Below, piece after piece: positions 9,128-37,939 of a stretch of DNA of 38,068 nt. Numbering within the stretch: position 1 is the stretch's first letter; each line of letters opens with the position of its first letter. A program made the translations under genes and the position numbers. The notes under the pieces were generated by a model. It was not told the DNA's origin, did no database searches, and saw only the letters and a program-made list of their open reading frames with translations. Source of the DNA: an uncultured Bacteroidales bacterium (GTDB lineage Bacteria > Bacteroidota > Bacteroidia > Bacteroidales > UBA4417); contig CAIRMR010000043.1 in NCBI GenBank assembly GCA_903879715.1, positions 1 through 38,068 of the forward strand. The letters run 5' to 3'.

Positions 9128-11740
9128 TTAAAAAATTATCGCATATGATATTTTAACCAAAAAGTCATTCTGGGGATGTGAATTTCTTAACTCATCAGCA
9201 TAATTTCCAAACATAAAATTTGCATCAGATCCGTCTGTTGTACGCCCCTGCGACCATACCAGAAAAATTGTTGAACCCGGCTTGTATTCCCACCGGTATA
9301 CCAGGTTTGACCTGTATTGCAGAAAATGAAAATTCGGGTTATCAAAACTGTAATCGTCGTTGCCATCTGTATGAACAGTATAAACTCCGGATTCACTGTC
9401 GCTTATTAGTTCATCAGCTGTATATTCGTGAAACCTGTCGTTATAATCCGGAGAGTCAGATTTGGTAATAGTTTTAAAGTGTGAATAATTTCCTGAGAAA
9501 AAGAAAGGTTGTCCGTAATATTGAATTGACATATCGGGTGTTAAACCAATATTGATTCGGGCAGCAAGCGAAAACTGTTTGCTGTCGAGCTGGCCCATAA
9601 CATATTTATCCGCACCATCTCCTTCGATGGTAGTAACATATTGAAGATTATCCTGAGCTTCAAAATAGGAAGGTGAAAGCGAAATTGAAATTGTGTTGGT
9701 CGGTTTATAAGTCAGCGAGTATTCAATTTCAGCCATATTTGAATTATTGTATTCACTCCATCGCTTCATCAGGGAAAGATTCATTGATATCTTCTTCCTC
9801 TCATCACTGTTAAGACCTAAACGAAAGTTAAAACTGGGTGGTGTTTTAAGCATGGGCCCGCCTCGTAAATCATAAGCAGACAAGGAGTTGCCTTGCAGGT
9901 TAAATCCCGAAAAAACGGAATAGTAATTTTTAAACTGAAGGTTCCCGTTCATTTCTATCCCTTTATAGATACTTTGCCCGGCGAAATTCCAGCCCGTATA
10001 AATATCGCCACCAAAGTTGAACGAGTTATAAAAGTGCTTTGGCTGCCATTCGTTATATCCAAACCAGGCTACCTGCTGAATATTGTCCGACTGCTGCATA
10101 AAACCAAGATCATTGAAGTCGAGACCTGGCGAGGTCCATGTAATCCAGGAAAGCATCCTGAGATGCCCACCACCAAATTTTCCAAATTCAAGTGTTCCGC
10201 CATGACCGCTGAGGCTGGTACGTGTGCTGTCGACTTTCAGGTGTGTAGCGTCGGGCCGCTGAAAATTGTGGGTTGAGTTAGTCTGTAACTCAGTGATGGC
10301 TTCTTTCGAACCATAAATGCTGCTGAAAATCCCTCTGACGCTTATAAAATAGTTCTTGTTATCCCAGTAATGCGTGGCATTAACACCACCCGTATATGCA
10401 GCTCCAGGCAAAGTGATAAAGTTTTCACTGTTGATATCCCTGTGAGTGGATGTTAAAATTCCCCCAATCACACTATTCCCTTTATTTATATCCTGTTCAA
10501 CCCTGGCCACCATATAGTTAGTAAAAGGCTCGACAGGATATTTGCTTTTTACGCCTTGTATCTCCAGGTCAGCGCTTTCTCTTTGTGTAAACGATTCAAG
10601 AATTCCGATGGAAAGCCCCTTACGGGTTTTCCCCGAAAGTTTGAATGCCCCTAAAATACTTGCATTATCAGGAACCTTCGCGTATTCATTATCATTAAGA
10701 TCCGGCGCAAAATGAGGCGACCTTCCGATTCGTCGCGAATAAAACATGCCGGCAGCAGAACCGTCACCATCTCCTGAAGTCATCCTGAAATCAAAAATAT
10801 TCCGGCCTTCGATAAAAAACGGTCTTTTCTCAGGGTAAAAGGATTCAAACGAGGAAAGATTAACCTGGGAAGGATCAGCTTCTACCTGGCCAAAATCAGG
10901 ATTTACGGTCAGATTTAATGTAAGATCGTTGGTAATGCTTATTTTGCCGTCAAGGCCGGCTGAAAATGAGTTATCTCTACCGCTAACAAAAGGATTACCA
11001 TCTTCTTTCTCGGCATAGGTAATCTTGCCTAGGGTAAATGGAATTAATTCTATGTCTTTTTTAGGTGAAATATCGCGGATTCCTTCCAGTGTGCCGAAAT
11101 CACTCACTGTTTTATTTGCGCTTTTATGTAAGGGCTCCCAAAGAGATATTTCGCTTTTCCGAAAAACAAAACGGGCAACTTCAACGCCCCATTCATAACT
11201 GTTTTTCTTTGTAAAACGGAGTTGTGATAATGGGATGCGCATTTCGGCATTCCACCCTTCGGCATCAGTACTTGTTTTTACATACCATATCGGATCCCAG
11301 CTTGCATCCTGTGAGTTATCGTTAGTGAATATCGCATCCATTTTTGAGCCGGCGGCAGTCACACTAAAACTGAATCCGGTTAGCTTATCTTCATAGCTAT
11401 CAATAATAATTCCGGCCCAATCACCATCTTCTGCATCACGCCTCGAAAGCCGTTGGTTAATTTTATCCGGCTCGGAATCATACGATTTAATAGCAACATA
11501 TAAATTATTGTCATCGTAAAGTATAGCGAATTTTGTCTTCTGGCTTGGAAGTGTGTCTTCATAAGGCTGGAATTGAGTGAAATCCCCCGCCCATTCAATC
11601 TCTTTCCAGCAGGCATCATCAAATTTACCATCAATGGCAGGAGCTTTGGAATTTAATTTTTGGGTGGTATATGTTTTTTTCTGCGAAATCGCAGAAAAAG
11701 GTATTACTATGAGAATCAGAAAGGTAAGTATTCTTGTCAT
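9128..11740 (-). CDS. DUF5916 outer-membrane protein with CBM9-like N-terminal domain
   Basis: The 870-residue protein has a signal peptide (residues 1-19, FSAIS before QKK). A carbohydrate-binding family 9-like beta-sandwich lies at about residues 28-215, including APAIDGKFDDACW, LYDDNNLYVAIKSYDS and WNAEMRIPLSQLRF. The DUF5916 barrel starts near DIELIPFTLGKI and includes LTLNLTVNPDFGQVEADPSQ and FYPEKRPFFIEGRNIF. The C-terminus, KISYAIIF, ends in Phe as an outer-membrane barrel should. The family is widespread in Bacteroidota and its substrate is unknown; the CBM9-like domain suggests sugar or polymer contact at the surface. It has a full-length paralogue at 27808-30435. It is transcribed alone, away from the kinase gene. 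Confidence 0.93.
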   Translation of the reverse strand: MTRILTFLILIVIPFSAISQKKTYTTQKLNSKAPAIDGKFDDACWKEIEWAGDFTQFQPYEDTLPSQKTKFAILYDDNNLYVAIKSYDSEPDKINQRLSRRDAEDGDWAGIIIDSYEDKLTGFSFSVTAAGSKMDAIFTNDNSQDASWDPIWYVKTSTDAEGWNAEMRIPLSQLRFTKKNSYEWGVEVARFVFRKSEISLWEPLHKSANKTVSDFGTLEGIRDISPKKDIELIPFTLGKITYAEKEDGNPFVSGRDNSFSAGLDGKISITNDLTLNLTVNPDFGQVEADPSQVNLSSFESFYPEKRPFFIEGRNIFDFRMTSGDGDGSAAGMFYSRRIGRSPHFAPDLNDNEYAKVPDNASILGAFKLSGKTRKGLSIGILESFTQRESADLEIQGVKSKYPVEPFTNYMVARVEQDINKGNSVIGGILTSTHRDINSENFITLPGAAYTGGVNATHYWDNKNYFISVRGIFSSIYGSKEAITELQTNSTHNFQRPDATHLKVDSTRTSLSGHGGTLEFGKFGGGHLRMLSWITWTSPGLDFNDLGFMQQSDNIQQVAWFGYNEWQPKHFYNSFNFGGDIYTGWNFAGQSIYKGIEMNGNLQFKNYYSVFSGFNLQGNSLSAYDLRGGPMLKTPPSFNFRLGLNSDERKKISMNLSLMKRWSEYNNSNMAEIEYSLTYKPTNTISISLSPSYFEAQDNLQYVTTIEGDGADKYVMGQLDSKQFSLAARINIGLTPDMSIQYYGQPFFFSGNYSHFKTITKSDSPDYNDRFHEYTADELISDSESGVYTVHTDGNDDYSFDNPNFHFLQYRSNLVYRWEYKPGSTIFLVWSQGRTTDGSDANFMFGNYADELRNSHPQNDFLVKISYAIIF

Positions 11741-12107: not shown

Positions 12108-13251
12108 ATGAGAAATAAAATACTCAATATACGAATCATTGAATTTTTTGTTTTTGTGGTTATCTGGATGGCGGTATTTTCCGTACCTTTTTTTAATCAA
12201 CGGATTTTTAATACAATAAACTGGGGGAAAGTATTCGGGGAATGGATAAGCATGTTCTCGTTTTTACTCATTTTTGTATTAAATACGTTATGGCTAGTTC
12301 CGATTCCTTTTTCAAAAGAAATACCGGTCTTATGTTGGAACTACGCTAATAGTGATACTATTGGTTACAGGTGCTACAATTTTAATTAAGATAAACATAT
12401 TACCACCTCAGCCCTTGGCAATGCCACCCATGAATCTGGGGCCAGGTATGCCGCCGATGGAATTGGGGCCGGGAATGCCGCCTCCAATGGGATACAATCC
12501 GGTAACAGAGCCTGTATCAAAATCATTGTTGATGAATTTTATTGATAATCTGATACTTTCCATTCTCGTTGTAGGGGCCGGAACAGCTTTCAAATTGGTA
12601 TCACAATGGCTTAACGAGGAAAGCAAACGAAAAGATCTTGAAAAAGAGCAGCTTAAGACTGAATTGGCATTGTTGCGGCACCAGGTAAGCCCTCATTTTT
12701 TTATGAATACCTTGAATAATATCCACGCGCTTATCGATATAAATGCCGAAGACGCGAAAAATACAATTATCCAGCTGTCGGTAATGATGCGTTATTTGCT
12801 ATATGATACAGCCCACGGACAAACCACTCTAAAAAAAGAGATTGCTTTTATTGAAAGCTACATAACACTAATGAAATTGCGATTTCCGGAGAATGTAACC
12901 ATTACCCTTGAGGTTCCTGAAGATATACGGGATATAGAGATCCCTCCCATGCTTTTTATTTCTTTTCTCGAAAATGCATTTAAACATGGGGTAAGCTACC
13001 AGGCCGAATCGTTTGTGTTATTCAAAATAGCACAAAATGGCAATAAGCTTAACTGCAGTATCCGAAACAGCAAATTCAAGAGTAAGGAAAAAGACGAGAA
13101 AAGCTATTCCGGTATTGGATTGACCAATATCAAAAAGAGCCTGGAACTTCTTTTCAAAAATGATTACATACTCAATATTCGTGAGAGCGAAAAAGAATAC
13201 GAAGTACATCTAACCATACCCGTTTATGAAAATAAAATGCATAGCAATTGA
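12108..13251 (+). pseudogene. LytS/YehU-type sensor histidine kinase, split by one-base frameshift
   Basis: This His_kinase (PF06580) membrane kinase is split over two frames. The first part, from ATG 12108, encodes two membrane helices and then leaves the correct frame near the T5 run at 12308-12312. Removing one T there restores LVPIPFQKKYRSYVGTTLIV and joins it to the rest, giving about 380 residues. That is a normal length, with four membrane helices. A Pro/Met-rich loop lies between helices 3 and 4. The phospho-acceptor region LRHQVSPHFFMNTLNNIHAL, the FLENAFKHG N-box and the SGIGLTNIKKSLELLF G-box are all intact. Without the repair, only a GTG start at 12352 would give the 299-residue catalytic part. 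The 3' end overlaps the regulator gene by 26 bases. This could be a true mutation, phase variation at the T-run, or a sequencing error; the intact remainder points to a recent event or an error. Confidence 0.85.
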
Positions 13252-13945
13252 TGATGAGCCGCTTGCGTTGAAGCAAATAAACTCTTACATCGAAAAAACG
13301 CCATTTCTTGAAGTTGTAGCATTATGTCATAATGCTTTTGATGCTATGAAATTCCTGGCAAACAACGAAGTAGATCTGATGTTCGTTGACATAAACATGC
13401 CTGACCTGAACGGCATGGATTTTGTAAAATCGCTGACACAAAAGCCACAGATTATTTTTACAACGGCATACAGTCAGTATGCAATCGAAGGATTCCAGGT
13501 TGACGCACTGGATTATATTCTGAAGCCTATCAGTTACGCCAGTTTTCTAAAATCAGCCAATAAGGCGAATACCTGGTTCGAGCTGAATCAGAAACAATCA
13601 GAGTCCGTTCAAACAACACAGGATAGCCTTTTTGTAAAATCGGAATACAAAATGGTCCGAATCTTCTTGTCTGAAATCAAATACATCGAAAGTTCAAATG
13701 AATATATTCAGATTCATCTGGTAAATGATGAGCCTGTTACGACTCTGATCCGACTGAAAGTGATGGAGGAACAGCTTCCTAAAGATAAATTCATGCGTGT
13801 TCACCGCTCATTTATCGTGAATCTTGACCGCATCAGGGTGATTGAACGAAACCGCATTGTTTTTGACCATAATGTGTATATACCTGTCGGAGATCAGTAT
13901 AAGGAAAGCTTTCAGGCGTTTGTGGACAGGACTTTTATAGTTTAA
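13226..13945 (+). CDS. LytTR-family response regulator
   Basis: This is a 239-residue cytoplasmic regulator. The receiver domain (about 1-120) has the acidic pair D9/D10, phospho-acceptor D55 in FVDINMPDLNG, T79 in FTTAY and K99 in the YILKPI turn. The LytTR DNA-binding domain (about 135-235) has the VKSEYKMVRIFLSEIKYIES and FMRVHRSFIVNLDRI signatures. The start overlaps the kinase gene by 26 bases, so translation is probably coupled and the two form one two-component system. Targets cannot be deduced from the window; LytTR proteins bind direct repeats, and I did not find a convincing pair nearby. The gene ends 45 bases before a converging membrane-protein gene with no clear hairpin between. 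Confidence 0.95.
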   Translation: MKIKCIAIDDEPLALKQINSYIEKTPFLEVVALCHNAFDAMKFLANNEVDLMFVDINMPDLNGMDFVKSLTQKPQIIFTTAYSQYAIEGFQVDALDYILKPISYASFLKSANKANTWFELNQKQSESVQTTQDSLFVKSEYKMVRIFLSEIKYIESSNEYIQIHLVNDEPVTTLIRLKVMEEQLPKDKFMRVHRSFIVNLDRIRVIERNRIVFDHNVYIPVGDQYKESFQAFVDRTFIV

Positions 13946-15765: not shown

Positions 15766-16005
15766 ATGAAACTCCGAAAAAACATAGCAAGCAGCGAAGA
15801 AGGATTTATTTTTAATCCGGGTACAGGTGATTCATTTTCAACGAACCCCATTGGTGCTGAAATTATTACTTTGCTGAAAGAAAATAAAAGTGTAAGTGAG
15901 ATTAAATCCCACATGTATGAAAGGTATGATGTGGAGGAGGTGCGGTTCGAGAAAGATCTTGATGACTTTATTTCCCAGTTAAAGGAAGCATCCATTCTCG
16001 AGTAG
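15766..16005 (+). CDS. PqqD-family peptide-binding (RRE-like) protein
   Basis: This is a 79-residue soluble protein with the PqqD (PF05402) layout: an N-terminal beta-hairpin (SSEEGFIFNPGTGDSFSTN), then NPIGAEIITLLKENKSVSEI, the hallmark 'N.tga.I..L..g.tv.eI' helix. A winged-helix tail follows, with YDVEEVRFEKDLDDFISQL. Members bind the leader of a ribosomal peptide and present it to a modifying enzyme; PqqD does this for PqqA. No radical SAM maturase lies beside it here. Instead an ATP-grasp ligase (17085) and a PLP decarboxylase (20581) share the locus, and the decarboxylase carries a leader-like N-terminus. The size fits the family (about 75-95). The family call is good; the partner is inferred. 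Confidence 0.85.
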   Translation: MKLRKNIASSEEGFIFNPGTGDSFSTNPIGAEIITLLKENKSVSEIKSHMYERYDVEEVRFEKDLDDFISQLKEASILE

Positions 16006-16134
16006 CTTGTTGAATCAGAAACTGCCAGGGAAAGTAGTCTTGGAGGAAAATCTTAGCAATCTGTCCCCTCAGAATAAACTGAATTAAAAAAAGTTTAGCT
16101 AAAATAATAACAAACCATCTTAATCGAATATATT

Positions 16135-16935
16135 ATGAAACGCTTTGCACTTATTGTCACCCTATTTGCATGTTTAACATCCGGTTCACAGGCTCAACTG
16201 GCCCTGGAACATACGTACACAGGCGTATCTGCTGCATACATCAAACTTCCTATCGCCGGTTATAAATATTATGTGATGGATGTGGCTAACAAGCAGTGTA
16301 GATTTTATAATAATGATCATTCACTTTGGAAGACTATAAATCTAAGCATTCCGGCTAATTATTTCCTCTGCGATATACAATATGTTACCGAAGATCTTTT
16401 CAATACGGACAATCTGATTGAGCTGCTTTATGTTTCGTATAATTACAATACAACGCTAAAATACTACACTTACGATACCCGGATTGTAAATGAAAACGGA
16501 TCACAATTATTGGGTATGCCTTACGCTGGTTATTCATACATCTATCCGGCAGAAACCGGTTCCAAATTATTTATGTGGATTTATGACTTTTCCGTATTCC
16601 CTGAAACTGTTAATACTATGGTTTATTCTATCCCGGGTAAGCTAAATACATTAACAACTGTATCCCCTAATGGACTAAAAAGTTCACTGGGCAGTGCCTA
16701 TCCAAACCCTACTACCAGCGAAGTCACAATTCCATATTTTTTGCCATCAAATATTGAACAAGCAGAATTGAAACTCTATGCGATGAACGGGGAAATGGTA
16801 AAGTCTTATGCAATTGATCATACGTTCGATTCAATCCTGGTAAAAACAAGTGAACTTCCTGCCGGTATGTATATTTATAGAGTTGAGACAAACGCTTATA
16901 AATCAAAATCTTTTAAACTTGCAGTAAGTAGATGA
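16135..16935 (+). CDS. Exported protein with type IX secretion C-terminal sorting domain
   Basis: The 266-residue protein has a signal peptide (residues 1-20, TSGSQAQ). The Tyr/Asn-rich central part (about 25-175) matches no family I know. The C-terminal Por/T9SS type A sorting domain covers about residues 185-266, with SAYPNPTTSEVTIPYFLP, LKLYAMNGEMVKSY and LPAGMYIYRVE followed by a basic end (KLAVSR). The protein should be exported, passed through the T9SS and anchored or released at the surface. It sits between the PqqD-like and ATP-grasp genes on the same strand with gaps of 130 and 150 bases, so it may belong to the same locus. The role of the central part is unknown. Confidence 0.85.
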   Translation: MKRFALIVTLFACLTSGSQAQLALEHTYTGVSAAYIKLPIAGYKYYVMDVANKQCRFYNNDHSLWKTINLSIPANYFLCDIQYVTEDLFNTDNLIELLYVSYNYNTTLKYYTYDTRIVNENGSQLLGMPYAGYSYIYPAETGSKLFMWIYDFSVFPETVNTMVYSIPGKLNTLTTVSPNGLKSSLGSAYPNPTTSEVTIPYFLPSNIEQAELKLYAMNGEMVKSYAIDHTFDSILVKTSELPAGMYIYRVETNAYKSKSFKLAVSR

Positions 16936-17084
16936 AATAAGCAAAATAGAGAATCTGCTTTCAAAATAGGTATAGTGGTGTGAAATTTAATTGATAAAAG
17001 ACTAAAAATCATCGCTAGCAATTACCACCTGAAAAAAACTAACTAACCTGGCAGGTCAATAACCTGAAAAACAAAACAATCCTG

Positions 17085-18161
17085 ATGAAAGCACAAGCCG
17101 AAAACACTAATAATTCCAACAATCAACAACTCGTAATCGCTGTTACCGGGCTTAATGCTATCGACAGCCCAGGACCTGGTGTGGCAGTAATACGTGCCAT
17201 ACGCGATTGCCATGACTTTAATGTGCGCATTATCGGGCTGTCGTACGAATCGCTCGAACCTGGAGCTTACATGCACGACATTGTTGATAAAACCTATCAG
17301 ATCCCGTATCCGTCAGCCGGTACCGACACGCTCATGGCCAGGCTCATGTATATACACTCAATTGAAAAACTCGATCTGATTATTCCAAACTTTGACGCCG
17401 AGCTTTTTAATTTCATCAAACTTAGAGATAAACTGGCCGAATCAGGGATACGTACATTTCTGCCGGATCTGGAGCAGTTTGAAGCCCGCGACAAGGTTAA
17501 GCTTTATGAATTTGGTAAAAAGAATGGCTTATTTGTGCCTGCTGATAAGATTATACATCAGGCTAAAGACCTAGAAGAAACTGCTGAAGAATTAGGGTAC
17601 CCAATGGTTATAAAAGGGAAATTTTACGATGCAATTATTGTAAACACGCTAGAGCAGGCTCAAAAAGCTTTTTATAAATTACAGGCAAAATGGGGTTTGC
17701 CTATTATTGTACAGGAGTTTATCAACGGCACCGAAATAAATGTAGCTGCTTTGGGCGATGGCGAAGGAAATGCAATCAGTGTGATTCCTATGCGTAAACT
17801 CTATATTACCGATAAAGGGAAAGCATGGTCGGGGATTACAATTGATGATTCGTCGTACATTGAACTTGCCCGTAAATTTATTAAAGTAACCAAATGGCGT
17901 GGTGGCTGTGAACTCGAAATTATGCAGTCGGAAGATGGGAAGCCATATATCATGGAAGTAAATCCCCGGTTTCCTGCCTGGATATATTTAACAGCGGCAG
18001 CCGGACAAAACCAGCCAGCCTCCCTGGTAAAAATGGCTATGGGGCAAGAAGTTGAACCTTTCACCGAATATAAAGTAGGTAAGATGTTTATACGTTACGC
18101 ATGGGATATGATTGCCGATGTGAGCGAATTCCAGAAAATATCAGGAACAGGAGAACTCTAA
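17085..18161 (+). CDS. ATP-grasp ligase (carbamoyl-phosphate-synthase/PylC-like)
   Basis: This is a 358-residue cytoplasmic enzyme with an ATP-grasp fold. The N-terminal Rossmann-like pre-ATP-grasp domain starts at IAVTGLNAIDSPGPGVAVIR (about 18-37). A hinge at FEARDKVKLYEFGKKNGL leads into the ATP-binding lobe, with YPMVIKGKFYDA, then the VQEFINGTEINVAALGDGEG segment. The Mg-binding ELEIM...YIMEVNPRFPAW block supplies the conserved Glu and Asn. The fold forms an acyl-phosphate and ligates it to an amine, but neither substrate can be read from the sequence. It lacks the full CPS architecture and the RimK Lys pattern. Its neighbours (PqqD-like, PLP decarboxylase) suggest peptide or amino-acid chemistry. 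The ATG at 17085 gives a 17-residue polar Asn-rich lead before the fold. Confidence 0.88.
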   Translation: MKAQAENTNNSNNQQLVIAVTGLNAIDSPGPGVAVIRAIRDCHDFNVRIIGLSYESLEPGAYMHDIVDKTYQIPYPSAGTDTLMARLMYIHSIEKLDLIIPNFDAELFNFIKLRDKLAESGIRTFLPDLEQFEARDKVKLYEFGKKNGLFVPADKIIHQAKDLEETAEELGYPMVIKGKFYDAIIVNTLEQAQKAFYKLQAKWGLPIIVQEFINGTEINVAALGDGEGNAISVIPMRKLYITDKGKAWSGITIDDSSYIELARKFIKVTKWRGGCELEIMQSEDGKPYIMEVNPRFPAWIYLTAAAGQNQPASLVKMAMGQEVEPFTEYKVGKMFIRYAWDMIADVSEFQKISGTGEL

Positions 18162-18488
18162 GCTTTTATACAACCCGGACGACGAAAACCTATAGCCTGA
18201 CTATCTCATAAATACAGAATTTGCTATTCAAAAACTAAACCCCAAAAGGTATATTCATTGCACTGAAAATAGCAGCAGATGTGGTTTCCCATCCAGATAC
18301 CCATGGTGAACCAGTCCGTATCAACACATTTGAGATAATTAAAGCGGATACGAAAACACACAGGGTTATTCAGGCCATAAATCCTGAAAATAAAATATGA
18401 GTTTAACATGCACTCATTGTTTGTAAGCAAATCTGAAGTATGAAGCTTGTTCATTCTTCAAAATCATAAAAAAATCAAAATCATAAAG
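18162..18488. other. Spacer with a 54-codon open stretch of unknown origin
   Basis: No annotated gene. In the plus frame beginning after the stop at 18236-18238, an open stretch runs to a stop at 18398-18400 and reads, for example, FIALKIAADVVSHPDTHGEP and INTFEIIKADTKTHRVIQ. It has no ATG. It looks like coding sequence without a start and may be a gene fragment; see the findings. Confidence 0.4.
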
Positions 18489-19214
18489 ATGAAAAATCAA
18501 GGATTAAGAATAGTGTTCCTGGTCGCAGCAATGATCACATCAATGCAGTTGATAGGTTGTTCGAAGGGCACTGCCGAAGATTACACGCTAACCGCAGACG
18601 AATCTGTGGCCAGCATCGAAAAAATCGCAGCCGAATCAATATTAGTTGATAGTTGCATTAACGCTTTACCGGTTGAATCATTGTCGGAAACAGAAATTGA
18701 TGCCCTAAATACTATGCGTGAAGAGGAACTACTTGCAAAAGATGTGTATGTAACGTTATATGCCTTATATAACGTACCTGTTTTCAACAATATTTCAAAA
18801 AGCGAAGCACAACATGCTTTAGCTATTGGGTCATTGATGGTTAAATATAGCCTTCCTGATCCTGCGTTAAATCACGTTGCCGGTGTATTTGTAAATACAG
18901 ACCTTCAGGCACTCTATACCAGCCTGATTGCCCAGGGGACCACTTCGCTTATTGCGGCACTCACCGTTGGGGCAACTATCGAGGATCTGGATATTAACGA
19001 CTTACAAAACCATATTGCAACCGATGTTGACAACCAGGATATCCTGTTTGTGTTTGGAAACCTCGAAAGAGGATCACGAAATCACATGCGCTCTTTCAAC
19101 AGGCAATTAACAGCTCAAGGCGTAACATATACTCCACAGTTTATCAGCCAGGAATTTTTCGATCAGATAATTTCTTCCTCTAACGAAACCGGCACCGGTG
19201 TATGCTCTCAGTAA
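18489..19214 (+). CDS. DUF2202 ferritin-like lipoprotein (copy 1)
   Basis: This is a 241-residue predicted lipoprotein. The lipobox MQLIGC puts the acylated Cys at residue 24. The DUF2202 domain covers about residues 70-238, with MREEELLAKDVYVTLY, the SEAQHALAIG helix, VGATIEDLDINDL and GSRNHMRSF. The Glu, E-x-x-H and NHMR positions resemble a carboxylate-bridged ferritin-like bundle, so metal or electron chemistry is likely, but no function is established. I start at ATG 18489; the frame extends upstream to a TTG at 18447, which would place polar residues before the signal. A paralogue follows 195 bases downstream, and a hairpin terminator separates the two. Confidence 0.88.
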   Translation: MKNQGLRIVFLVAAMITSMQLIGCSKGTAEDYTLTADESVASIEKIAAESILVDSCINALPVESLSETEIDALNTMREEELLAKDVYVTLYALYNVPVFNNISKSEAQHALAIGSLMVKYSLPDPALNHVAGVFVNTDLQALYTSLIAQGTTSLIAALTVGATIEDLDINDLQNHIATDVDNQDILFVFGNLERGSRNHMRSFNRQLTAQGVTYTPQFISQEFFDQIISSSNETGTGVCSQ

Positions 19215-19223
19215 GATTTCAAG

Positions 19224-19267
19224 CCAGGGTGCGTTTAATGCGATATTTTTAATTGCACCCTGGTTTT
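19224..19267 (+). terminator. Intrinsic terminator after the first DUF2202 gene
   Basis: CCAGGGTGC at 19224-19232 pairs perfectly with GCACCCTGG at 19255-19263 across a 22-base A/T-rich loop. It is followed by TTTT. It lies ten bases after the stop codon. Confidence 0.82.
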
Positions 19268-19408
19268 GCATTTCTTTAGACGGGACGAAACGGCACAATC
19301 TTGATTCGTAAAACCGACCGAAAGCTTTAAATTCAAAACCTTATCAGTGATAATTTTCACAAAAAAAACTAGTCAATTCTAAAATTCAACTTCAAGCACT
19401 CAAAAACG

Positions 19409-20089
19409 ATGAAAACGCAACTATTTAATCACAAATCAATCACAATCATATCGAAGAGTATATTTTTACTCTTACTCATGACAATACTAGTAAGCCAGGG
19501 ATGCTCAAAAGATGAACCTGTTGTAGCTACTGATCTTATATCTCAAATTAATGCTTTGCCCTTGGAAGCGTTGAATGAAGATGAAACAAGTTTCCTGCTT
19601 TTAATGCGTGAAGAAGAAAAGCTGGCCAAAGATGTTTATGTAACGTTGTATGCAAAATGGAATATAAATGTTTTTCTGAATATCTCTTCAAGTGAACAGG
19701 ACCATACTGATGCAGTTCTTGTATTAATAAACAAATACTCACTGGTTGATCCTGTTACTACAAATGATGTAGGTGTATTTACTGATGATCACTTGCAGGA
19801 GCTTTATGACCAGTTGGTGGCAATCGGAAGCACAAATGTGCTTGATGCCTATAAAGTTGGCGCAACTATCGAAGATCTGGATATCTTTGACCTGAAAGAA
19901 GCCATCTCGAAAACGGATAATCAGGACCTCAACCTGGTGTGGGAAAATCTTTCGATGGGAAGCAGAAATCATATGCGCTCATTTTATGGTCAGATTGTTG
20001 GTTTGGGAAGTACATATACAGCACAGTTTATTTCCCAGGAGGAACTAACCGCAATCATAAGCACGCCAAGGGAAAACAATAAGCAATAG
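19409..20089 (+). CDS. DUF2202 ferritin-like lipoprotein (copy 2)
   Basis: This is a 226-residue predicted lipoprotein with an acylated Cys at residue 32 (lipobox VSQGC). The DUF2202 domain repeats the copy-1 motifs: MREEEKLAKDVYVTLYAKW, SEQDHTDAVLVLINKYSL, VGATIEDLDIFDL and GSRNHMRSF. By eye about half of the aligned residues are identical, so the two are old tandem duplicates, not recent ones. The signal peptide is longer and the linker between Cys and domain is shorter than in copy 1. Both keep the same putative metal-binding residues. The copies lie between the ATP-grasp gene and the PLP decarboxylase gene and could supply surface-exposed metal or redox chemistry to the locus; that is conjecture. 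Confidence 0.88.
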   Translation: MKTQLFNHKSITIISKSIFLLLLMTILVSQGCSKDEPVVATDLISQINALPLEALNEDETSFLLLMREEEKLAKDVYVTLYAKWNINVFLNISSSEQDHTDAVLVLINKYSLVDPVTTNDVGVFTDDHLQELYDQLVAIGSTNVLDAYKVGATIEDLDIFDLKEAISKTDNQDLNLVWENLSMGSRNHMRSFYGQIVGLGSTYTAQFISQEELTAIISTPRENNKQ

Positions 20090-20580
20090 CCTGGATACAG
20101 CATTGTTGAAAATTAAGCCAGCAAAACTTATTCGGCGTTTTTTAGTCTCATCAGTTCCTTTTCAGCCAGGTTTTACATGAAAGTGCAATGGTATATAACT
20201 GTTGTTGTTTATCAGTAGATTTGTTTGTTAATCTCTACTAACAAAAAAATAGCTTGTCGGCCATTTGTGAATACACCTTGTGAGCAACCTAAGGGTTAAA
20301 AAATTTAAAATCAGGAAATTGAACTTATTATTAACAAAAGAAATAGCTCAGACTAAACCAGATACTTGCAAAATAGTTCAGGGTTTTGGATACGAACAAG
20401 TGATTTTCAGTGATGTATTTAAATAAGTTGGCAATAAATATGTTGTTGAAGATACAGAGGAAAATATTGTTACGTAGCTCAAACCTTTAGGCGAATTTGT
20501 AAAAGGAAGTGGTTCGCCACAATTAGAACATTTTCGATTAGTACACATCCAATAAAAATGCATTTAGTAAATAATAAATC
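20090..20580. other. Spacer with a possible relic reading frame and a -7 element
   Basis: A TAGATTTG (20216-20223) resembles a -7 element. In the plus frame from 20271 to about 20552 the translation is protein-like (LKPLGEFVKGSGSPQLEHFR near the end) but is broken by TAA (20424-20426) and TAG. The last stop lies about 30 bases before the decarboxylase ATG. This looks like a decayed gene, or an upstream short frame starting at a GTG (20280). No hairpin terminator is seen after copy 2 of DUF2202. Confidence 0.4.
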
Positions 20581-21927
20581 ATGGAAAAACTAAGATATGA
20601 AAGACCCGTTATTCAGAAAATGAGTACAGGACTTATGAATAAATTTGGCACGCGAACTGAGAATATTCCAGTTACCCACATCGAAAGTGTACCCGTAAAA
20701 ACCCTGATACAAGAGTATGGTTCACCCTTGTTTGTGATATCGGAGAAGCAAATCAGGCGGAATTACCAGAATGCAACCCGGATTTTCAAAACCCGTTATC
20801 CAAAAGTTCAGTTTGCCTGGTCGTATAAAACCAATTATATGGATGCCGTTTGCCGGATATTCCACCAGGAAGGCTCGTGGGCCGAGGTGGTTTCAGGATT
20901 TGAATATGAAAAAGCGCTTAACAACGGTGTACCGGGAAATAAAATCATTTTCAACGGTCCCGATAAAACCGACGAACAACTTGTTACTGCCGCCCGTAAT
21001 AATTCACTGATCCATATCGACCACTTTGACGAACTCTATTCACTCATTAAACTGAGTGAAGAAAACAACCTGAAACCGCGCGTGGCTATCCGTGTGAATA
21101 TGGATACCGGCATTTACCCGAAATGGGATAGGTTTGGGTTTAATTTCGAAAACGGACAGGCATGGAATGCTATTACACGGATCATTAATTCAGATAATCT
21201 TGATTTGGTAGGACTTCATTGCCATATCGGAACATTTATGCTTTCCCCTTCAGCGTATGCTGTGGCGGCCACAAAATTGAGCGAATTAACCTGGAGCGTG
21301 AAAGAAAAGTTCAATAAAGTCCTGCAGTATATCGATCTCGGTGGAGGATTCCCATCAGCCAACACGCTGAAAGGGGCTTATTTGCCAGGTTCCGATACGA
21401 TTCCTTCCATCGATCAGTTTGCCGATGCTATTACGGATGTCATTCTTGGCTATGGTTTCAAGCAGGAAGATTTACCCTTATTAATCCTCGAATCGGGTCG
21501 TGTGTTGATTGATGATGCAGGTTTTTTACTGGGAACAGTTTTGGCCAACAAACGGCTTTCTGACGGACGCAGAGCAACTATTCTCGATTTTGGTGTCAAC
21601 ACTCTGTTTACTGCATTTTGGTATGATCACCAGATAAGTACAACCCAATCCTACGGCCAGCATACCGAAGAAATGGTGTTGTACGGTCCGCTTTGCATGA
21701 ATATTGATGTTGTTCGCGAAAGTATTACCATGCCATTACTCGAAAAAGGGAACCATGTGGTTGTGCACAAAGTTGGTGCTTACAATATGACACAATGGAT
21801 GCAATTTATTACATTGCGGCCTAATATCGTATTAATAGATAATGATAACAATACACACGTAATCCGTAAGGCAGAAACACTTGAGAATATGCTGTCGAAT
21901 GAGCAGATTCCTGAATATCTGAGGTAA
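20581..21927 (+). CDS. Fold-type III PLP-dependent decarboxylase (DapDC-like)
   Basis: This is a 448-residue cytoplasmic enzyme of the alanine-racemase/diaminopimelate-decarboxylase fold. Its Lys83 in FAWSYKTN should form the PLP Schiff base. GLHCHIGTF (H215) stacks on the cofactor, LILESGR (E304-R307) corresponds to the EPGR loop, and YGPLCMNID (C372) supplies the second-subunit Cys. VGAYNMTQWMQF (Y401) completes the site. All key residues are present, so it is probably active on a basic or diamino acid, but the substrate is not defined. The first about 28 residues are extra: MEKLRYERPVIQKMSTGLMN, containing a Y-x-x-P-x-I motif like those of RRE-bound leaders. The ATG at 20581 is the first in frame and directly opens this extension. 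Confidence 0.92.
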   Translation: MEKLRYERPVIQKMSTGLMNKFGTRTENIPVTHIESVPVKTLIQEYGSPLFVISEKQIRRNYQNATRIFKTRYPKVQFAWSYKTNYMDAVCRIFHQEGSWAEVVSGFEYEKALNNGVPGNKIIFNGPDKTDEQLVTAARNNSLIHIDHFDELYSLIKLSEENNLKPRVAIRVNMDTGIYPKWDRFGFNFENGQAWNAITRIINSDNLDLVGLHCHIGTFMLSPSAYAVAATKLSELTWSVKEKFNKVLQYIDLGGGFPSANTLKGAYLPGSDTIPSIDQFADAITDVILGYGFKQEDLPLLILESGRVLIDDAGFLLGTVLANKRLSDGRRATILDFGVNTLFTAFWYDHQISTTQSYGQHTEEMVLYGPLCMNIDVVRESITMPLLEKGNHVVVHKVGAYNMTQWMQFITLRPNIVLIDNDNNTHVIRKAETLENMLSNEQIPEYLR

Positions 21928-22422: not shown

Positions 22423-24633
22423 ATGCCCACCCGCCAATACGCTGATACTTTCCGCAATACTATTCTGCCTGCCACGCTAAACAGTTATTCTGCCATTTTC
22501 TTTTCCAAAAACAATATATTAGGGTCAGCAATTATGCTGGTAACCTTTTTTAATTTCTTTGCCGGACTGAGTGGCCTAATTGCGGTTTTGGGAACCCTGC
22601 TTATTGCAAACGCGATGGGCTTTGATAAAATGCAGCTGAAAAACGGGATTTACAGTTTTAATGCACTGTTGACAGGTTTGGGGATGGGAACATTTTTTGA
22701 CCCCGGGTATGTATTTTTCAGTTTGCTGTTGCTGGCTGCGTTGCTCACGCTTATCCTTTCTGTAACATTAGGAGGTTGGTTGGGTAAATATGGATTACCT
22801 TTTCTGAGCATACCCTTTGTGGTAGCGTTCTGGTTTGTTGTATTGCCTTCCTCGCAATTCGAAAATCTGGGTTTAACGCAACGCAACATATTTTGGATGA
22901 ACGAAATGTATGCTATTGGCGGAAAACCGATGCTTGATTTCTTTCAAACCATTGATGCGCTGCCTATTCATAAGATGCTGGATATATACCTGCGGTCAAT
23001 GAGTTCTATATTTTTCCAGAATAACCTGATAGCAGGGTTGATAATTACCGTAGCTGTGCTGATCAGCTCCAGGATTGCATTTTCATTATCCATAGTGGGA
23101 TTTCTGTCGGCTTTCTTGTTTGCACAATTCTCGGGATCGGATGCAGCCAGTATCACCTATTACAATATTGGCGCCAACTATATTATGGTTGCCATTGCCA
23201 TTGGTGGTTTTTTTATCATCCCCTCAGGCTATTCTTACTTATGGAGCATATTGCTGGTTCCGCTTACATCGCTTGTGCTGCTGTTTATGATCAAGTTGTT
23301 AGGCTATATTCAATTGCCTGTTTTTTCGCTGCCTTTTTCATTTGTGGTAATCTTGTTTGTTTATTTTTTGAAGTTAAGGTTGAATTCATCTAAATTAAAA
23401 CTCACACCTATACAATATTATTCCCCCGAAATAAACCTCTATACCTTTAAAAACAACCAGGAAAGGCTTGCACAGTTCCTTTATTTCCCGCTTTACCTTC
23501 CTTTCTGGGGCGAGTGGAGCGTGACTCAGGGATATGATGGCGAATATACCCACAAAGGCGACTGGGGGAAAGCGCTGGATTTTATGATCTATGATGATAA
23601 GATGAAAACTTATAGGTCTAATGGGTTGCTTTGCGAGAACTACTATTGCTATAACAAACCTGTTCTTGCCCCTGCCGATGGTATAGTGGAAGAAGTAATT
23701 GATACCATTGACGATAATGAGATCGGCAAAGTGAATACGTCGAATAATTGGGGTAATTCAATTATAATAAGGCATTTACCGGGACTTTATACCCAGATAT
23801 CACACCTGAAAAGAGGTTCATTTAAAGTAGTGAAGGGACAATACGTAAAACGGGGTGATTTGCTTGCTGCCTGTGGCAATTCAGGCCGTTCGCCAGAGCC
23901 TCACCTGCATTTCCAGGTGCAGACAACACCCATACTTGGCGCAAAAACAATTTATTACCCTTTTGCCTATTTCCATCAGAATGGAAAAACAGAAAAAGAA
24001 CTTTTTCAGTTCCTGGTTCCGGTAGAAGGGGTAAACGTTTCAGGTATTTCGGGCAATGCTATACTTCAGTCTGCATTTGATCTGATGCCTGATACAAGCC
24101 TCACATATAGTTACACGAACGGGAAAGGTAGCGCTATTGCTGAAAAATGGGAGGCCTACACCGATGCATATAATAATAAGTACCTTTATTGTAAAACTAC
24201 CGAGTCGGTTGCCTATTTTGTTAACGATGGCTCCATGTTTTATTTCACAGCCTTTTATGGGGATAAAAAGTCGCTGCTTTACTATTTTTACCTTTCGGCC
24301 TATAAAGTGTTTTTAGTGAATCCTGATGCTGTTGCTGTTAAGGATGCAATGCCATTAAACACTATCAGGAATAAAAAGGTGCGTATCTGGCTTCACGATT
24401 TTATAGCACCCTTTTATACTTACATCAAGGCTGGGTATTCAATTAAAGTAGCCTCTATGGATACATTTTCCGGATCAGGGATAATCACCCTCAATTCAGA
24501 AATAGAGGTCTCCATATGGGGTAAAACAAATAATGAAAGCAATAGCTCTATTACTGTTCAGGATAATTGCATCAAAGAATTCAGTTTTCAATCTGTTAAA
24601 ACCCAAATAAAAGCTACATGTATAAACTCATAA
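22423..24633 (+). CDS. Urea transporter fused to M23 (LytM-type) metallopeptidase
   Basis: The 736-residue protein begins with a urea-transporter domain of about 320 residues and roughly ten helices. The domain shows FNALLTGLGMGTFF, LPFLSIPFVVAFWFV and the second-half counterpart FFQNNLIAGLIITVAVLISS. A LytM/M23 peptidase domain follows at about 355-520, with H377 and D386 in THKGDWGKALDF, H461 and the catalytic HLHF (H494, H496), so all zinc ligands are present. The last 200 residues are unassigned. It would channel urea-like solutes across the inner membrane while its C-terminal half acts on peptidoglycan, assuming that half is periplasmic. The gene overlaps the next by 16 bases. Both domains are clear; the physiological link is unknown. 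Confidence 0.9.
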   Translation: MPTRQYADTFRNTILPATLNSYSAIFFSKNNILGSAIMLVTFFNFFAGLSGLIAVLGTLLIANAMGFDKMQLKNGIYSFNALLTGLGMGTFFDPGYVFFSLLLLAALLTLILSVTLGGWLGKYGLPFLSIPFVVAFWFVVLPSSQFENLGLTQRNIFWMNEMYAIGGKPMLDFFQTIDALPIHKMLDIYLRSMSSIFFQNNLIAGLIITVAVLISSRIAFSLSIVGFLSAFLFAQFSGSDAASITYYNIGANYIMVAIAIGGFFIIPSGYSYLWSILLVPLTSLVLLFMIKLLGYIQLPVFSLPFSFVVILFVYFLKLRLNSSKLKLTPIQYYSPEINLYTFKNNQERLAQFLYFPLYLPFWGEWSVTQGYDGEYTHKGDWGKALDFMIYDDKMKTYRSNGLLCENYYCYNKPVLAPADGIVEEVIDTIDDNEIGKVNTSNNWGNSIIIRHLPGLYTQISHLKRGSFKVVKGQYVKRGDLLAACGNSGRSPEPHLHFQVQTTPILGAKTIYYPFAYFHQNGKTEKELFQFLVPVEGVNVSGISGNAILQSAFDLMPDTSLTYSYTNGKGSAIAEKWEAYTDAYNNKYLYCKTTESVAYFVNDGSMFYFTAFYGDKKSLLYYFYLSAYKVFLVNPDAVAVKDAMPLNTIRNKKVRIWLHDFIAPFYTYIKAGYSIKVASMDTFSGSGIITLNSEIEVSIWGKTNNESNSSITVQDNCIKEFSFQSVKTQIKATCINS

Positions 24634-25760
24634 TTGCCATCCTGCTCCTATTTCCCGTGATACTAAAAGCGCAGGATACACTTACCCAGACTTCGGCTGA
24701 CAGCATAACGTATCAATGTTATCTTACCGGTAACTGGGAAAATCTGATTAAAACAGGGAAACAGGCTTTGGCACAGAATATAGATTTCAAACGACTGAGG
24801 CAACGAATGGGGTATGCGTATTTTAATAAGGCAGATTATTACGCTTCGCAGAAACAGTATGAAAAAGCGCTGGAATTTGATGTTTTTGATCCCGACACCC
24901 GTGAGTATCTCTATTATTGCGGATTAAATACCGGCAACATTGCGTATGCGCGTGTTCACGCCAAAAAGCTTTCAGACGAAACCAAAAACAGGCTCGGTAT
25001 TAGCGCGTTCAATCCGATTGCTTCCATTGACCTGGAATACAATTACAAAAGCAATAACAGCGGAACCCGTTCAAATCCTTCTTATTATCGCGCAGGAGTT
25101 TATACACAAACCGGTTACCGGCTGTCGATCTATCAATCGGCATCAAATTACAAGCAAACAGTAGATACTACCCTGATAAAACAGCCTGATTATTTTGCGT
25201 TGGTGAACTGGTCAATAACTTCGCACACTTCGCTGTCCTTAGCGTATCATCACCTGAATACCAGCCTTGATGGATATAAATATCCCGGAAACCTTGTGTT
25301 TGGATCACTTTCAACCCACATAAACAGGTTTGTTTTGGGTGTAAACGGATCATTTTTCAGGTATGATATAGGAGATTTCAAACAAATTGGCTTACTAGCC
25401 GGAGTCACCTTGCCGGGGAAATCCAATATTTATTTTAATACGTACCTTAGTGGATTGCTTGAAAAAGGGAATAACCGGCTTATTTTTTCACAATATGCCG
25501 GGGCACGTGTTTTTAAATCATTATGGGCCGAAGGAACCGTTACAATTGGTAACATACAAAACTACAATGATCACAACGCGCTTTATATTTATAATTCGAT
25601 TGATCCGACCTTGTTCAGAACCGGATTGTCTTTATACTGGAATCTCAACAAAAACGTTACTTTATACGGTAATTACCTGTACGATACCAAACAGGTGGAG
25701 AAAACTACCAATCAATACATTCAGCAATCATTTTTAGGAGGACTAATATGGAAACTTTAA
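24618..25760 (+). CDS. TPR-containing outer-membrane beta-barrel protein
   Basis: The 380-residue protein has a signal peptide (residues 1-18, FPVILKAQ). A short helical TPR-like part lies at about 35-125 (GYAYFNKADYYASQKQYEKA). About 250 residues of alternating strands follow, from PIASIDLEYNYKSNNSG to the C-terminal QQSFLGGLIWKL. The end is typical of small outer-membrane barrels; the family resembles YaiO-like barrels, though I cannot confirm that. The start overlaps the transporter-peptidase gene by 16 bases and the end overlaps the TPR gene by 13, so the three are translated from one mRNA. Co-expression suggests they serve one envelope function, with the TPR units as adaptors. Confidence 0.82.
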   Translation: MYKLIIAILLLFPVILKAQDTLTQTSADSITYQCYLTGNWENLIKTGKQALAQNIDFKRLRQRMGYAYFNKADYYASQKQYEKALEFDVFDPDTREYLYYCGLNTGNIAYARVHAKKLSDETKNRLGISAFNPIASIDLEYNYKSNNSGTRSNPSYYRAGVYTQTGYRLSIYQSASNYKQTVDTTLIKQPDYFALVNWSITSHTSLSLAYHHLNTSLDGYKYPGNLVFGSLSTHINRFVLGVNGSFFRYDIGDFKQIGLLAGVTLPGKSNIYFNTYLSGLLEKGNNRLIFSQYAGARVFKSLWAEGTVTIGNIQNYNDHNALYIYNSIDPTLFRTGLSLYWNLNKNVTLYGNYLYDTKQVEKTTNQYIQQSFLGGLIWKL

Positions 25761-26368
25761 GAAGAATCTCACTAACTGCCATCTTAACCGTAATGTTCGG
25801 TTACATCATGGCGCAGAATACCGCTGCCACCCAGGCAACTTTTGTAAAAAGCTATGAGTCGGAGAAATCAGGCAATTATGTGGCAGCCATAAATACAATG
25901 AAAACAATTTACAAAGCGGATAGCTATATTGCAAACATAAGGCTTGGATGGCTTTGTTACCTGGCAAAACAGTACACCGAATCAATTAAATATTACGAGA
26001 AATCCATTGGGTTAAAACCGTATGCCATTGAAGCCCGGTTTGGCTGTGTGAAACCGCTTAGCGCCATTGAGAGCTGGGACAAAGTAAAGGCTAACTATGT
26101 CGAAATACTGAAAATTGATCCGCAAAACACAATTGCTAATTACTGGTTAGGTGTTATCTATTATAACCGCAAGGACTTTGTCAGTGCGACAAAACTGTTC
26201 GAAAAAGTGGTCAATCTTTATCCCCTGGACTATGACTCTGTGATTATGTTAGCCTGGTCGAAACTGAGCACTAGCAAATCAGCTGATGCAAGGGTACTGT
26301 TTAATCACGCGCTGATTCTTCGGCCTAACGATAGCTCGGCACTTAGCGGACTGAAGCTGATCAAGTAA
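25748..26368 (+). CDS. Periplasmic TPR protein (copy 1)
   Basis: This is a 206-residue exported protein: a signal peptide (about residues 1-22, FGYIMAQN) then about four to five tetratricopeptide repeats. These include YVAAINTMKTIYKADSYIA, KQYTESIKYYEKSIGLKPYA, TIANYWLGVIYYNRKDFVSA and ADARVLFNHALILRPNDSSA. TPRs mediate protein-protein contact. It overlaps the barrel gene by 13 bases and its GGAGG Shine-Dalgarno (about 25737) lies inside that gene's last codons. A copy with about 85% identity by eye lies at 27099-27719. The strong Shine-Dalgarno is unusual here and conserved between copies. Confidence 0.9.
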   Translation: METLRRISLTAILTVMFGYIMAQNTAATQATFVKSYESEKSGNYVAAINTMKTIYKADSYIANIRLGWLCYLAKQYTESIKYYEKSIGLKPYAIEARFGCVKPLSAIESWDKVKANYVEILKIDPQNTIANYWLGVIYYNRKDFVSATKLFEKVVNLYPLDYDSVIMLAWSKLSTSKSADARVLFNHALILRPNDSSALSGLKLIK

Positions 26369-27098: not shown

Positions 27099-27719
27099 AT
27101 GAAAACTATAAAGAGAATTGTACTAACGCTAACGTTAACCATTTTAAGTGGTTACCTCATTGCACAAAATACAAGTGTAACTGAGGCTGCCTATGTTAAA
27201 AGCTATGAGTCGGAGAAATTCGGCAATTATGACGCAGCTATCAACACCATGAAAACGATTTATAAAGCGGATAGCTATATTGCAAACATCAGGCTGGGAT
27301 GGTTGTTTTACCTGGCAAAACAGTACACAGAATCCATTAAATATTACGAAAAATCCATTGCGCTAAAACCGTATGCCATTGAAGCCCGGTTTGGTTGTGT
27401 TAAACCACTCAGTGCTATAGAGAATTGGGATAAAGTAAAGATGCACTATGTGGAAATATTGAAAATTGATCCACAAAATACTATTGCCAATTACTGGTTA
27501 GGTGTAATTTATTACAACGGGAAGGAATTTGCTAATGCAATTAGCCTCTTCGAAAAAGTTATTACGCTTTATCCGTTGGATTATGATTCAGTAATCATGT
27601 TAGCCTGGTCGAAACTTAGAACAGGTCAGACATCCGAGGCAAGTGTATTATTTAATCATGCCCTTATTCTCAGGCCCAATGATAGTTCGGCTCTCGAAGG
27701 ACTGAAGCTCATTAAGTAA
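27099..27719 (+). CDS. Periplasmic TPR protein (copy 2)
   Basis: This is a 206-residue exported TPR protein. It has the same length and domain order as copy 1 and is identical at roughly 85% of positions by eye. Changes are concentrated in the signal peptide and the last repeats, while KSYESEK, NTMKTIYKADSYIANIRLGW and EARFGCVKPLSAIE are nearly unchanged. Its upstream 20 bases also match copy 1. Unlike copy 1 it has no upstream barrel partner and stands alone, converging on a DUF5916 gene 88 bases away. It probably arose by a segmental duplication. Whether it remains expressed is unknown, but the retained frame and Shine-Dalgarno argue for it. Confidence 0.9.
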   Translation: MKTIKRIVLTLTLTILSGYLIAQNTSVTEAAYVKSYESEKFGNYDAAINTMKTIYKADSYIANIRLGWLFYLAKQYTESIKYYEKSIALKPYAIEARFGCVKPLSAIENWDKVKMHYVEILKIDPQNTIANYWLGVIYYNGKEFANAISLFEKVITLYPLDYDSVIMLAWSKLRTGQTSEASVLFNHALILRPNDSSALEGLKLIK

Positions 27720-37558: not shown

Positions 37559-37932
37559 GGGGCTGACCGGTTTTGACAGCAAGGACAGTGGGATTGTAAG
37601 CATGCCGGGACTTTGAGTGAATGGCCCGCTAAAACCAAATACTCACGCCAACTAAATGGCAACAATTACGATTACGCATTAGCCGCTTAATCACAGTATT
37701 AACCTGCTAATTGTCCTCCGGGAAGCCTCGCCATCCGGCGTTCCGATTTAGGGCATCGAAAAGGGAAGGATAAGGTTGCCGGAGTCCTGACGGCAGCTCG
37801 AAAACCAAAGGGAATAAGGTAAGGATTGGGTGGCTTTTTGCCGGCTCTTACCCGACAATCAACTGGAAGCTAAGCATGTAGAAAGCGGTTTTGCTGCTTG
37901 TTTGGACCCGGGTTCGACTCCCGGCAGCTCCA
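37559..37932 (+). ncRNA. ssrA: Transfer-messenger RNA (tmRNA)
   Basis: The RNA starts GGGGCTGACCGGTTTTGACAG and ends TTCGACTCCCGGCAGCTCC plus a discriminator A. The ends pair as a tRNA-like acceptor stem (37559-37565 with 37925-37931). The T-loop reads GGGTTCGACTCCC. The mRNA-like part starts at GGC 37658-37660 and encodes the tag GNNYDYALAA, with a stop at 37688-37690. The resume Ala is supplied by the tRNA-like part, giving AGNNYDYALAA. The terminal CCA is not encoded. Together with SmpB it rescues stalled ribosomes. A group II intron remnant lies eight bases downstream on the other strand. Confidence 0.97.
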
Positions 37933-37939
37933 CAAGCTA

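Follow-up and report, generated by a model that had tools for sequence, protein, structure and literature searches.

A stand-alone PqqD-family protein predicted to dock a leader-tailed decarboxylase in a conserved operon of Bacteroidota

The stretch of DNA analyzed in this work (hereafter the window; positions 1 to 38,068 of contig CAIRMR010000043.1, assembly GCA_903879715.1, from an uncultured Bacteroidales bacterium) carries on its forward strand the genes for a PqqD-family protein, an ATP-grasp ligase and a fold-type III pyridoxal 5′-phosphate (PLP) decarboxylase (Table 1). There is strong support that these three genes act together as a real unit, which is part of a conserved operon. We consider it probable that they constitute a ligase-decarboxylase pathway in which the PqqD protein, a stand-alone recognition element (RRE) of the type known from ribosomally synthesized and post-translationally modified peptides (RiPPs), docks an enzyme in place of a precursor peptide. 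Sequence data give good support to enzyme docking by way of an RRE-leader pair; the docked enzyme is most likely the decarboxylase, held by its N-terminal tail, and it is probably docked to the ligase. The docking of the decarboxylase is suggested by a lasso-B1-type cleft in PqqD, a leader motif on the decarboxylase, covariation between the two and their co-inheritance. No published description of the gene set or of such enzyme docking was found in the open-licence literature, and subscription papers might mention the neighborhood; PMC12710340, PMC10352776, PMC11405602, and PMC12455567 were also drawn on.

The operon was delimited in a set of 81 loci, comprising the window and the best 80 of 584 confirmed decarboxylase places in named Bacteroidota genomes. 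The clustered members lie on one strand in the order PqqD, ATP-grasp ligase, decarboxylase, a urea transporter (UT)-family channel fused to an M23 peptidase domain, a β-barrel protein with tetratricopeptide repeats (TPR-barrel) and a small TPR protein, and in the window this conserved unit extends downstream of the trio to about 26.4 kb. By BLAST, 71 of the 81 loci have PqqD, 76 have ATP-grasp, and 74 have the UT-M23 fusion; the TPR-barrel was recovered in 63 loci and the small TPR protein in 59, or in 61 by clustering. In many loci short of a member, the missing gene falls at a contig end. When the three families were sought jointly in Bacteroidota, as the earlier note on this DNA had proposed, a recurrent same-strand trio was found in which PqqD usually starts 1.25–1.8 kb upstream of the decarboxylase (loci of the phylum draw described below). 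This distance is 4.8 kb in the window because passenger genes intervene. The earlier note was right that gaps separate the three genes, but it omitted the type IX secretion system (T9SS)-sorted protein and the two DUF2202 genes that interrupt the operon there, as well as the downstream operon genes.

Among 395 Bacteroidota genomes drawn across the phylum, the decarboxylase profile (E up to 1e-120) matched 34 and the PqqD profile (E up to 1e-9) matched 35, i.e., all 34 decarboxylase genomes and one other (G399, E 9.5e-10), so that this PqqD type is present in 34/34 genomes with the decarboxylase vs. 1/361 of the remainder. The decarboxylase was found in 151 of the 393 genomes of the window's order and, at E < 1e-120, in 32 of the 60 nearest genomes, accompanied by PqqD (E < 1e-17) in 30/32 and by ATP-grasp in 31/32. 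In this nearest sample, a genome that is 72% complete and has a broken decarboxylase frame showed neither partner (G008), another has the decarboxylase without PqqD (G011), and a third has PqqD, at a contig end, without the decarboxylase (G031). In G041, PqqD and ATP-grasp lie on a contig apart from the decarboxylase, and in G793 and G794 all three genes are on separate contigs, yet all are retained. In addition, G672 joins the ligase and the decarboxylase in a single frame, and the leader-like tail stands between the two enzymes (Table 1). No decarboxylase match was found on plasmids at E 1e-80. The compact same-strand spacing in relatives, the co-occurrence and the dispersed yet retained genes bear out the joint action that the earlier note had proposed from co-location, and in the nearest genomes the genes go together well, though not without exception. 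The gaps and the other genes between the trio members in the window might point to neighbors by chance, but co-occurrence, conserved same-strand order and spacing in relatives refute this explanation, to which we give practically no credence.

The absence of a maturase, also claimed from the window alone, held up: no radical SAM (S-adenosylmethionine) maturase was seen in it, since none of its non-overlapping open reading frames (ORFs) of at least 100 aa carries a CxxxCxxC motif. Nor is PqqD always tied to a radical SAM partner elsewhere, as only four CxxxCxxC ORFs were found in 113 loci of at least 7 kb with PqqD, and by reading these are three housekeeping-like enzymes and one spurious frame. 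Outside this count, a radical-SAM-like gene (CTIACPHC) lies divergent from PqqD on the other strand in G480 (L294:2440-3240). A second, diverged PqqD (PF05402 E 1e-5) was observed in two loci, L137:9194-9454 (from the genome of the window itself, at G000:C204:63202-63438) and L138:8383-8643. It immediately precedes two genes, one histidine-kinase-like and one LytTR-like, and adjoins a small lipoprotein-like protein in which a CLGCH motif occurs, with no ATP-grasp or decarboxylase gene there.

The PqqD protein belongs to the RRE/PqqD family, with 51.9 bits against PF05402 (gathering score 23.4). Among solved structures, its profile matched TbiB1 first (E 1.9e-11) and also TfuB1 (E 9e-7), both of them lasso B1 RREs. 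It falls below the NCBIfam lasso_PqqD cut-offs (31.2 vs. 70 and 28.3 vs. 80), and neither a lasso protease (B2) nor a cyclase (C) was seen among the recurrent neighbors in the 81 loci, where clusters were judged by size and opening residues with no profile search. Residue conservation was assessed in distinct PqqD/decarboxylase pairs: 275 loci had a decarboxylase above 300 bits, 35 without PqqD in the stretch were excluded, and the 240 pairs left were reduced to 210 by removal of duplicates. PqqD N27, D64, F68, and L72 align with N33, D70, F74, and M78 of LppB, and these cleft residues are retained: N27 in 209/210 pairs (one gap), F68 in 107/121 and L72 in 118/121 sequences, while residue 64 is D in 157/210 pairs and otherwise covaries with the leader. 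According to PMC13381572, N33 holds the Pro kink of the leader and D70 hydrogen-bonds its Tyr in a solved LppB complex, and discrete lasso RREs recognize [Y/W]xxPx[L/V/I/F/A]; PbaB1, whose preference is for Trp, carries G42 and Q79 at those sites, and the G42N/Q79D exchange raises binding of a Tyr leader. Chains 9x90_B and 9x8z_B were taken as PbaB1 and LppB, respectively, an inference from their names and fitting residues. By sequence, the PqqD family is closest to the lasso B1 RREs and retains the predicted leader-binding residues.

A segment fitting this ligand motif is found on the decarboxylase, whose tails are YERPxI-like. The pattern [YF]xxPx[ILV] occurs near the start of all 272 decarboxylase ORFs of at least 400 aa (duplicates included), within the first 80 residues in 271 of them, the remaining one being the ATP-grasp fusion. 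Across the 210 pairs, P9, I/L/V at position 11, and K21 are present in every tail and G23 in 208. In the AlphaFold model (mean predicted local distance difference test, pLDDT, of 84.8), tail residues 1–4 and 6–16 are below 50 and thus predicted to be disordered, and the body is mostly above 90. The motif did not recur in the first 40 residues of the other operon proteins (PqqD 0/76, ATP-grasp 0/93, TPR-barrel 0/69, small TPR protein 0/65; UT-M23 1/90). Against solved structures, the tail profile gave only a weak oligopeptidase match (E 1.2).

A standalone precursor peptide, and with it membership in an ordinary RiPP cluster, was sought and rejected. In the 124 loci over 7 kb, the search of same-strand intergenic ORFs of 20–90 aa, from 3 kb upstream to 5 kb downstream, returned 517 candidates and no family present in more than four loci; 18 of them have a loose YxxP-like motif and form no family. 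In 148 genomes, the tail profile had matches at E < 1e-4 in 15, always the start of a decarboxylase frame of 449–496 aa. Weaker matches (G158 and others, E 0.005–0.1) were discarded as relatives because they are short frames; the G158 locus, L149, has no decarboxylase. The earlier suggestion of an amino-acid or peptide modification system is therefore half right, as the peptide of PqqD is most likely the decarboxylase tail and a separate precursor was not found in the 124 loci; this makes the RRE look like an enzyme-docking device.

If the tail occupies the cleft, tails that have lost the Tyr hydroxyl should be paired with PqqD proteins that have lost the Asp, and the pair counts agree. Tyr6 is paired with D (157), N (12) or H (1) at PqqD 64, that is, 170/170, and Phe6 with Y (23), S (12), A (4) or H (1), that is, 40/40, with no case of Phe6 with D or N. 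The pattern was first seen in 75 pairs. Seven of the 35 excluded loci were traced: PqqD lies just beyond the stretch in G314, G456, G480, G504, and G602 and on another contig in G793 and G794; the genome of L080 showed no PqqD, and its stretch reads N there. Five excluded pairs were concordant by eye (L275/L293, L267/L292, and L109/L290, Y-D; L285/L294 and L277/L295, Y-N). In a 124-row tree computed from the ATP-grasp columns and the decarboxylase columns outside the tail, the leader residue switches eight times, with well supported branches forcing at least four of these switches, and the PqqD class switches seven times. Greedy pairing on the best tree gave eight disjoint pairs, and in every one the Tyr row has D/N/H and the Phe row Y/S/A. 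As a control subject to the same ancestry, mutual information with the leader residue was compared across the 874 columns that make up PqqD, ATP-grasp and decarboxylase. The top rank went to PqqD 64, with 0.801 vs. 0.430 for the next column in the 57-row mixed clade and 0.853 vs. 0.374 over all 124 rows. The pair of tail 6 and PqqD 64 ranked second of 218,788 inter-protein pairs; ahead of it stands the pair of tail residue 19 and ATP-grasp residue 296, a neighbor of the NPR motif. This first-ranked pair is not taken as proof of a second contact and is kept as a hint only: its mutual information is high but its events are too few, the tail residue changing just three times on the tree and most independent pairs showing no difference.

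With respect to the enzymes, the earlier statement that the three genes lie intact on the same strand is corroborated by their Pfam and NCBIfam matches and by invariant residues that are likely catalytic. In 37 decarboxylase sequences, K83, G254-256, E304, G306, R307, C372, D376, and G399-Y401 are invariant, which supplies the PLP lysine, glycine-rich loop, ExGR, CxxxD, and GAY residues of a fold-type III PLP decarboxylase. The likely catalytic residues of the ATP-grasp ligase are likewise invariant and its E-x-NPR motif is retained, with a mean column identity of 65% (38 sequences); for both enzymes the catalytic roles are those that we presume for these residues. The decarboxylase stays below the NCBIfam cut-offs for FslC (E 6e-70, 236.1 vs. 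500) and the lysA equivalog (E 2e-66, 224.1 vs. 297.9). It is nearest to FslC, the top profile match among solved structures (E 1e-78), and to diaminopimelate decarboxylase, and it also matches BtrK, the last match being named L-glutamyl-[BtrI acyl-carrier protein] decarboxylase, and the best Foldseek match of its model is the N-citrylornithine decarboxylase 7kh2 (31% identity). None of the 7 Pfam matches of the ligase, nor any of the 25 listed out of 28 NCBIfam matches, is to a family of graspetide ligases; the best is PRK12767-like.

From these data a working scheme can be proposed. PqqD would grip the decarboxylase tail in its β3/α3 cleft and deliver the decarboxylase to the ATP-grasp ligase, which would join an amino acid, via a carboxylate or an amine, to an acceptor; the decarboxylase would then strip the free α-carboxylate, as in BtrJ/BtrK or in N-citrylornithine synthesis with FslC. 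As a guess, the amine product could be matured by the M23 domain and exit through the UT-type channel and the TPR-barrel. Substrate, product and the last steps, including export of a small product, are all guesses.

The membrane genes were inspected in this regard. The UT-M23 metal ligands H377, D386, H494, and H496 are retained in 30/30 sequences. At the position equivalent to dvUT E187, which together with Q24 we take to be the Glu and Gln of the urea filter, the UT domain has A (17) or S (13) in these 30 sequences, and the Gln equivalent is Q in 8/30. Urea transport was rejected as the function because the filter Glu is not kept. In one locus the channel and the M23 domain are two overlapping separate frames (L144:9944-12198, genome G064), and the M23 frame starts, by reading, without a signal peptide, so a cytosolic location of this domain is possible. 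The AlphaFold model of the TPR-barrel has a pLDDT of 94.2, and its Foldseek matches are OmpG, PelBC, and BcsC, at low template modeling scores.

Several points weigh against enzyme docking as we propose it. The covariation concerns one contact and about eight events. Well supported branches provide four independent pairs, of which three agree, none is opposite and one shows no difference (about 3.9/4 agree when H is grouped with D/N), and with p of 0.25 or 0.125 this test alone is not significant. The top-ranked pair of residues 296 and 19, with its few changes, indicates that high mutual information can stem from deep splits. Additionally, the Phe-type pairs are without the hydrogen bond, we know of no carrier protein or acceptor for the ligation step, and the UT channel is without an equivalent of the urea-filter Glu.

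The same evidence can be read in other ways. The decarboxylase might be a self-carrying enzyme, its tail being presented by PqqD for ligation of an amino acid by ATP-grasp, with the invariant Lys21 as a natural acceptor that swings the amino acid into the decarboxylase's own active site, so that the enzyme acts on its own tethered cargo. K21 and G23 both lie outside the RRE-binding motif, the top inter-protein pair couples tail residue 19 to a position next to the NPR motif of ATP-grasp, one genome has the two enzymes as a fusion with the tail in between, and the usual role of an RRE is to offer a substrate to the enzyme that modifies it. But K21 could be structural, since the model has short strands at residues 18–20 and 23–25 and tail residue 27 covaries with decarboxylase residues 358 and 360; the 19/296 coupling has the few events noted above. 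We regard this explanation as unlikely, though worth keeping in mind: if true, enzyme, carrier and "precursor peptide" would be one protein, a RiPP-like modification on a metabolic-enzyme scaffold.

An ordinary RiPP system, with its precursor unannotated or elsewhere and a decarboxylase tail that is merely leader-like, would agree with the usual service of lone PqqD proteins to RiPP precursors (PMC7470986). The precursor could sit at another locus, beyond the small-ORF search, and elsewhere only the leader profile was applied. Set against this are the 517 small ORFs without a recurrent family, the unrelatedness of the 18 YxxP-like ones, and strong tail-profile matches that are always decarboxylase starts; the covariation of tail 6 with PqqD 64 would also be left unexplained, and we hold such a system to be quite improbable. 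It is harder still to believe that the tail has no connection with PqqD and serves the decarboxylase as a structural arm, the covariation arising from shared ancestry. The switches do all fall within a single part of the tree, and well supported branches force few of them, but in the mixed clade alone PqqD 64 stands nearly twofold above all other columns of the three proteins, and it is the column singled out by the crystal structure of another RRE (PMC13381572).

The coordinates of the features are collected in Table 1. The T9SS protein family recurs between PqqD/ATP-grasp and the decarboxylase, with a homolog near the decarboxylase in 27/275 loci, and DUF2202 is near it in 18/275 (duplicates included in both). 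In the 67 loci with at least 5 kb upstream, the LytS/LytTR pair occurs within 7 kb upstream of the decarboxylase (kinase 32/67, regulator 33/67). The two copies of the TPR gene represent a recent tandem-like duplication. Two proteins of 870 and 875 aa, each combining DUF5916 with CBM9, flank the operon on both sides (9128-11740 and 27808-30435, both on the reverse strand), and a transfer-messenger RNA gene with the tag GNNYDYALAA lies at 37559-37933.

Table 1. Features of the window, with one natural fusion from a related locus (L190).
Feature	Position	Strand	Evidence or remark
His_kinase (PF06580) sensor, probable regulator	12352..13251	+	Pfam E 2e-23
LytTR response regulator, probable regulator	13226..13945	+	PF00072 and PF04397, E about 1e-21
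PqqD-family RRE protein, 79 aa	15766..16005	+	PF05402 E 9.6e-14; cleft residues N27 and D64
T9SS-sorted secreted protein, passenger between PqqD/ATP-grasp and decarboxylase	16135..16935	+	Por_Secre_tail E 1e-10
ATP-grasp ligase, PRK12767-like, 358 aa	17085..18161	+	ATPgrasp_Ter E 8e-12, ATP-grasp_3 E 2e-11
DUF2202 lipoprotein-like protein, passenger	18447..19214	+	PF09968 E 9e-52
DUF2202 lipoprotein-like protein, passenger	19409..20089	+	PF09968 E 2.5e-58
LysA/FslC-like fold-type III PLP decarboxylase with N-terminal tail, 448 aa	20581..21927	+	Orn_Arg_deC_N E 2e-29
Leader-like decarboxylase tail, residues 1-23 (MEKLRYERPVIQKMSTGLMNKFG)	20581..20649	+	Y6-x-x-P9-x-I11, invariant K21, near-invariant G23
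UT-family channel fused to M23 peptidase domain, 736 aa	22423..24633	+	PF03253 E 2e-50, PF01551 E 1e-15
Predicted outer-membrane protein (TPR-barrel): signal peptide, TPR hairpins, ~14-strand β barrel	24618..25760	+	AlphaFold, Foldseek
TPR protein, 206 aa, final gene of conserved operon	25748..26368	+	TPR models
Second TPR gene copy	27099..27719	+	167/206 residues identical to the copy at 25748..26368
ATP-grasp::decarboxylase natural fusion, 835 aa	L190:388-2895	-	leader-like tail at residue 388, between the enzymes

RREs guide the discovery of peptide natural products, and a PqqD-like protein is taken to signal a precursor peptide. This rule seems to fail here, with the leader located on an enzyme. 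If the docking proposal is true, RRE-leader pairs would be a general docking device, and many "orphan" PqqD proteins may have enzyme partners that could be found by leader motifs at enzyme N-termini. Likewise, a phylum-wide pathway of Bacteroidota would become testable.

Several known systems can be compared with this one. The lasso B1 RREs (TbiB1, TfuB1, PbaB1) and LppB share with PqqD the fold family, the cleft residues and the YxxPx[L/V/I/F/A] ligand motif, including equivalents of the Asp that binds the Tyr and the Asn that holds the Pro kink (PMC13381572), but they bind the leader of a short precursor, whereas the motif in the present case belongs to a 448-aa enzyme without a core peptide. 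In the daptide proteins MpaB/MpaC an RRE also serves a decarboxylation (PMC10036551); there it brings the precursor peptide to an oxidative decarboxylase, whereas here the decarboxylase itself bears the leader. Graspetide systems, common in Bacteroidetes according to PMC8939145, share an ATP-grasp ligase, but the one here is PRK12767-like and came without a precursor peptide in the 124 loci. FslC (7kh2) is the closest solved relative of the decarboxylase by both profile and fold, but the profile match starts only at decarboxylase residue 29 and the operon here has no rhizoferrin-type synthetase. In the synthesis of the butirosin side chain, an ATP-grasp enzyme acts and then a LysA-like decarboxylase, the amino acid being decarboxylated while tethered. 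We presume the chemistry of BtrJ to be of this kind and take BtrJ/BtrK to handle Glu on a carrier protein. That system uses a carrier protein and no PqqD, unlike the one described here, and we know of no leader-like tail on BtrJ or BtrK. Nevertheless, it has the same pairing of an ATP-grasp ligase with a LysA-like decarboxylase working on a tethered amino acid, and by this analogy ligation followed by decarboxylation on the docked complex would be the favored course in the operon reported here.

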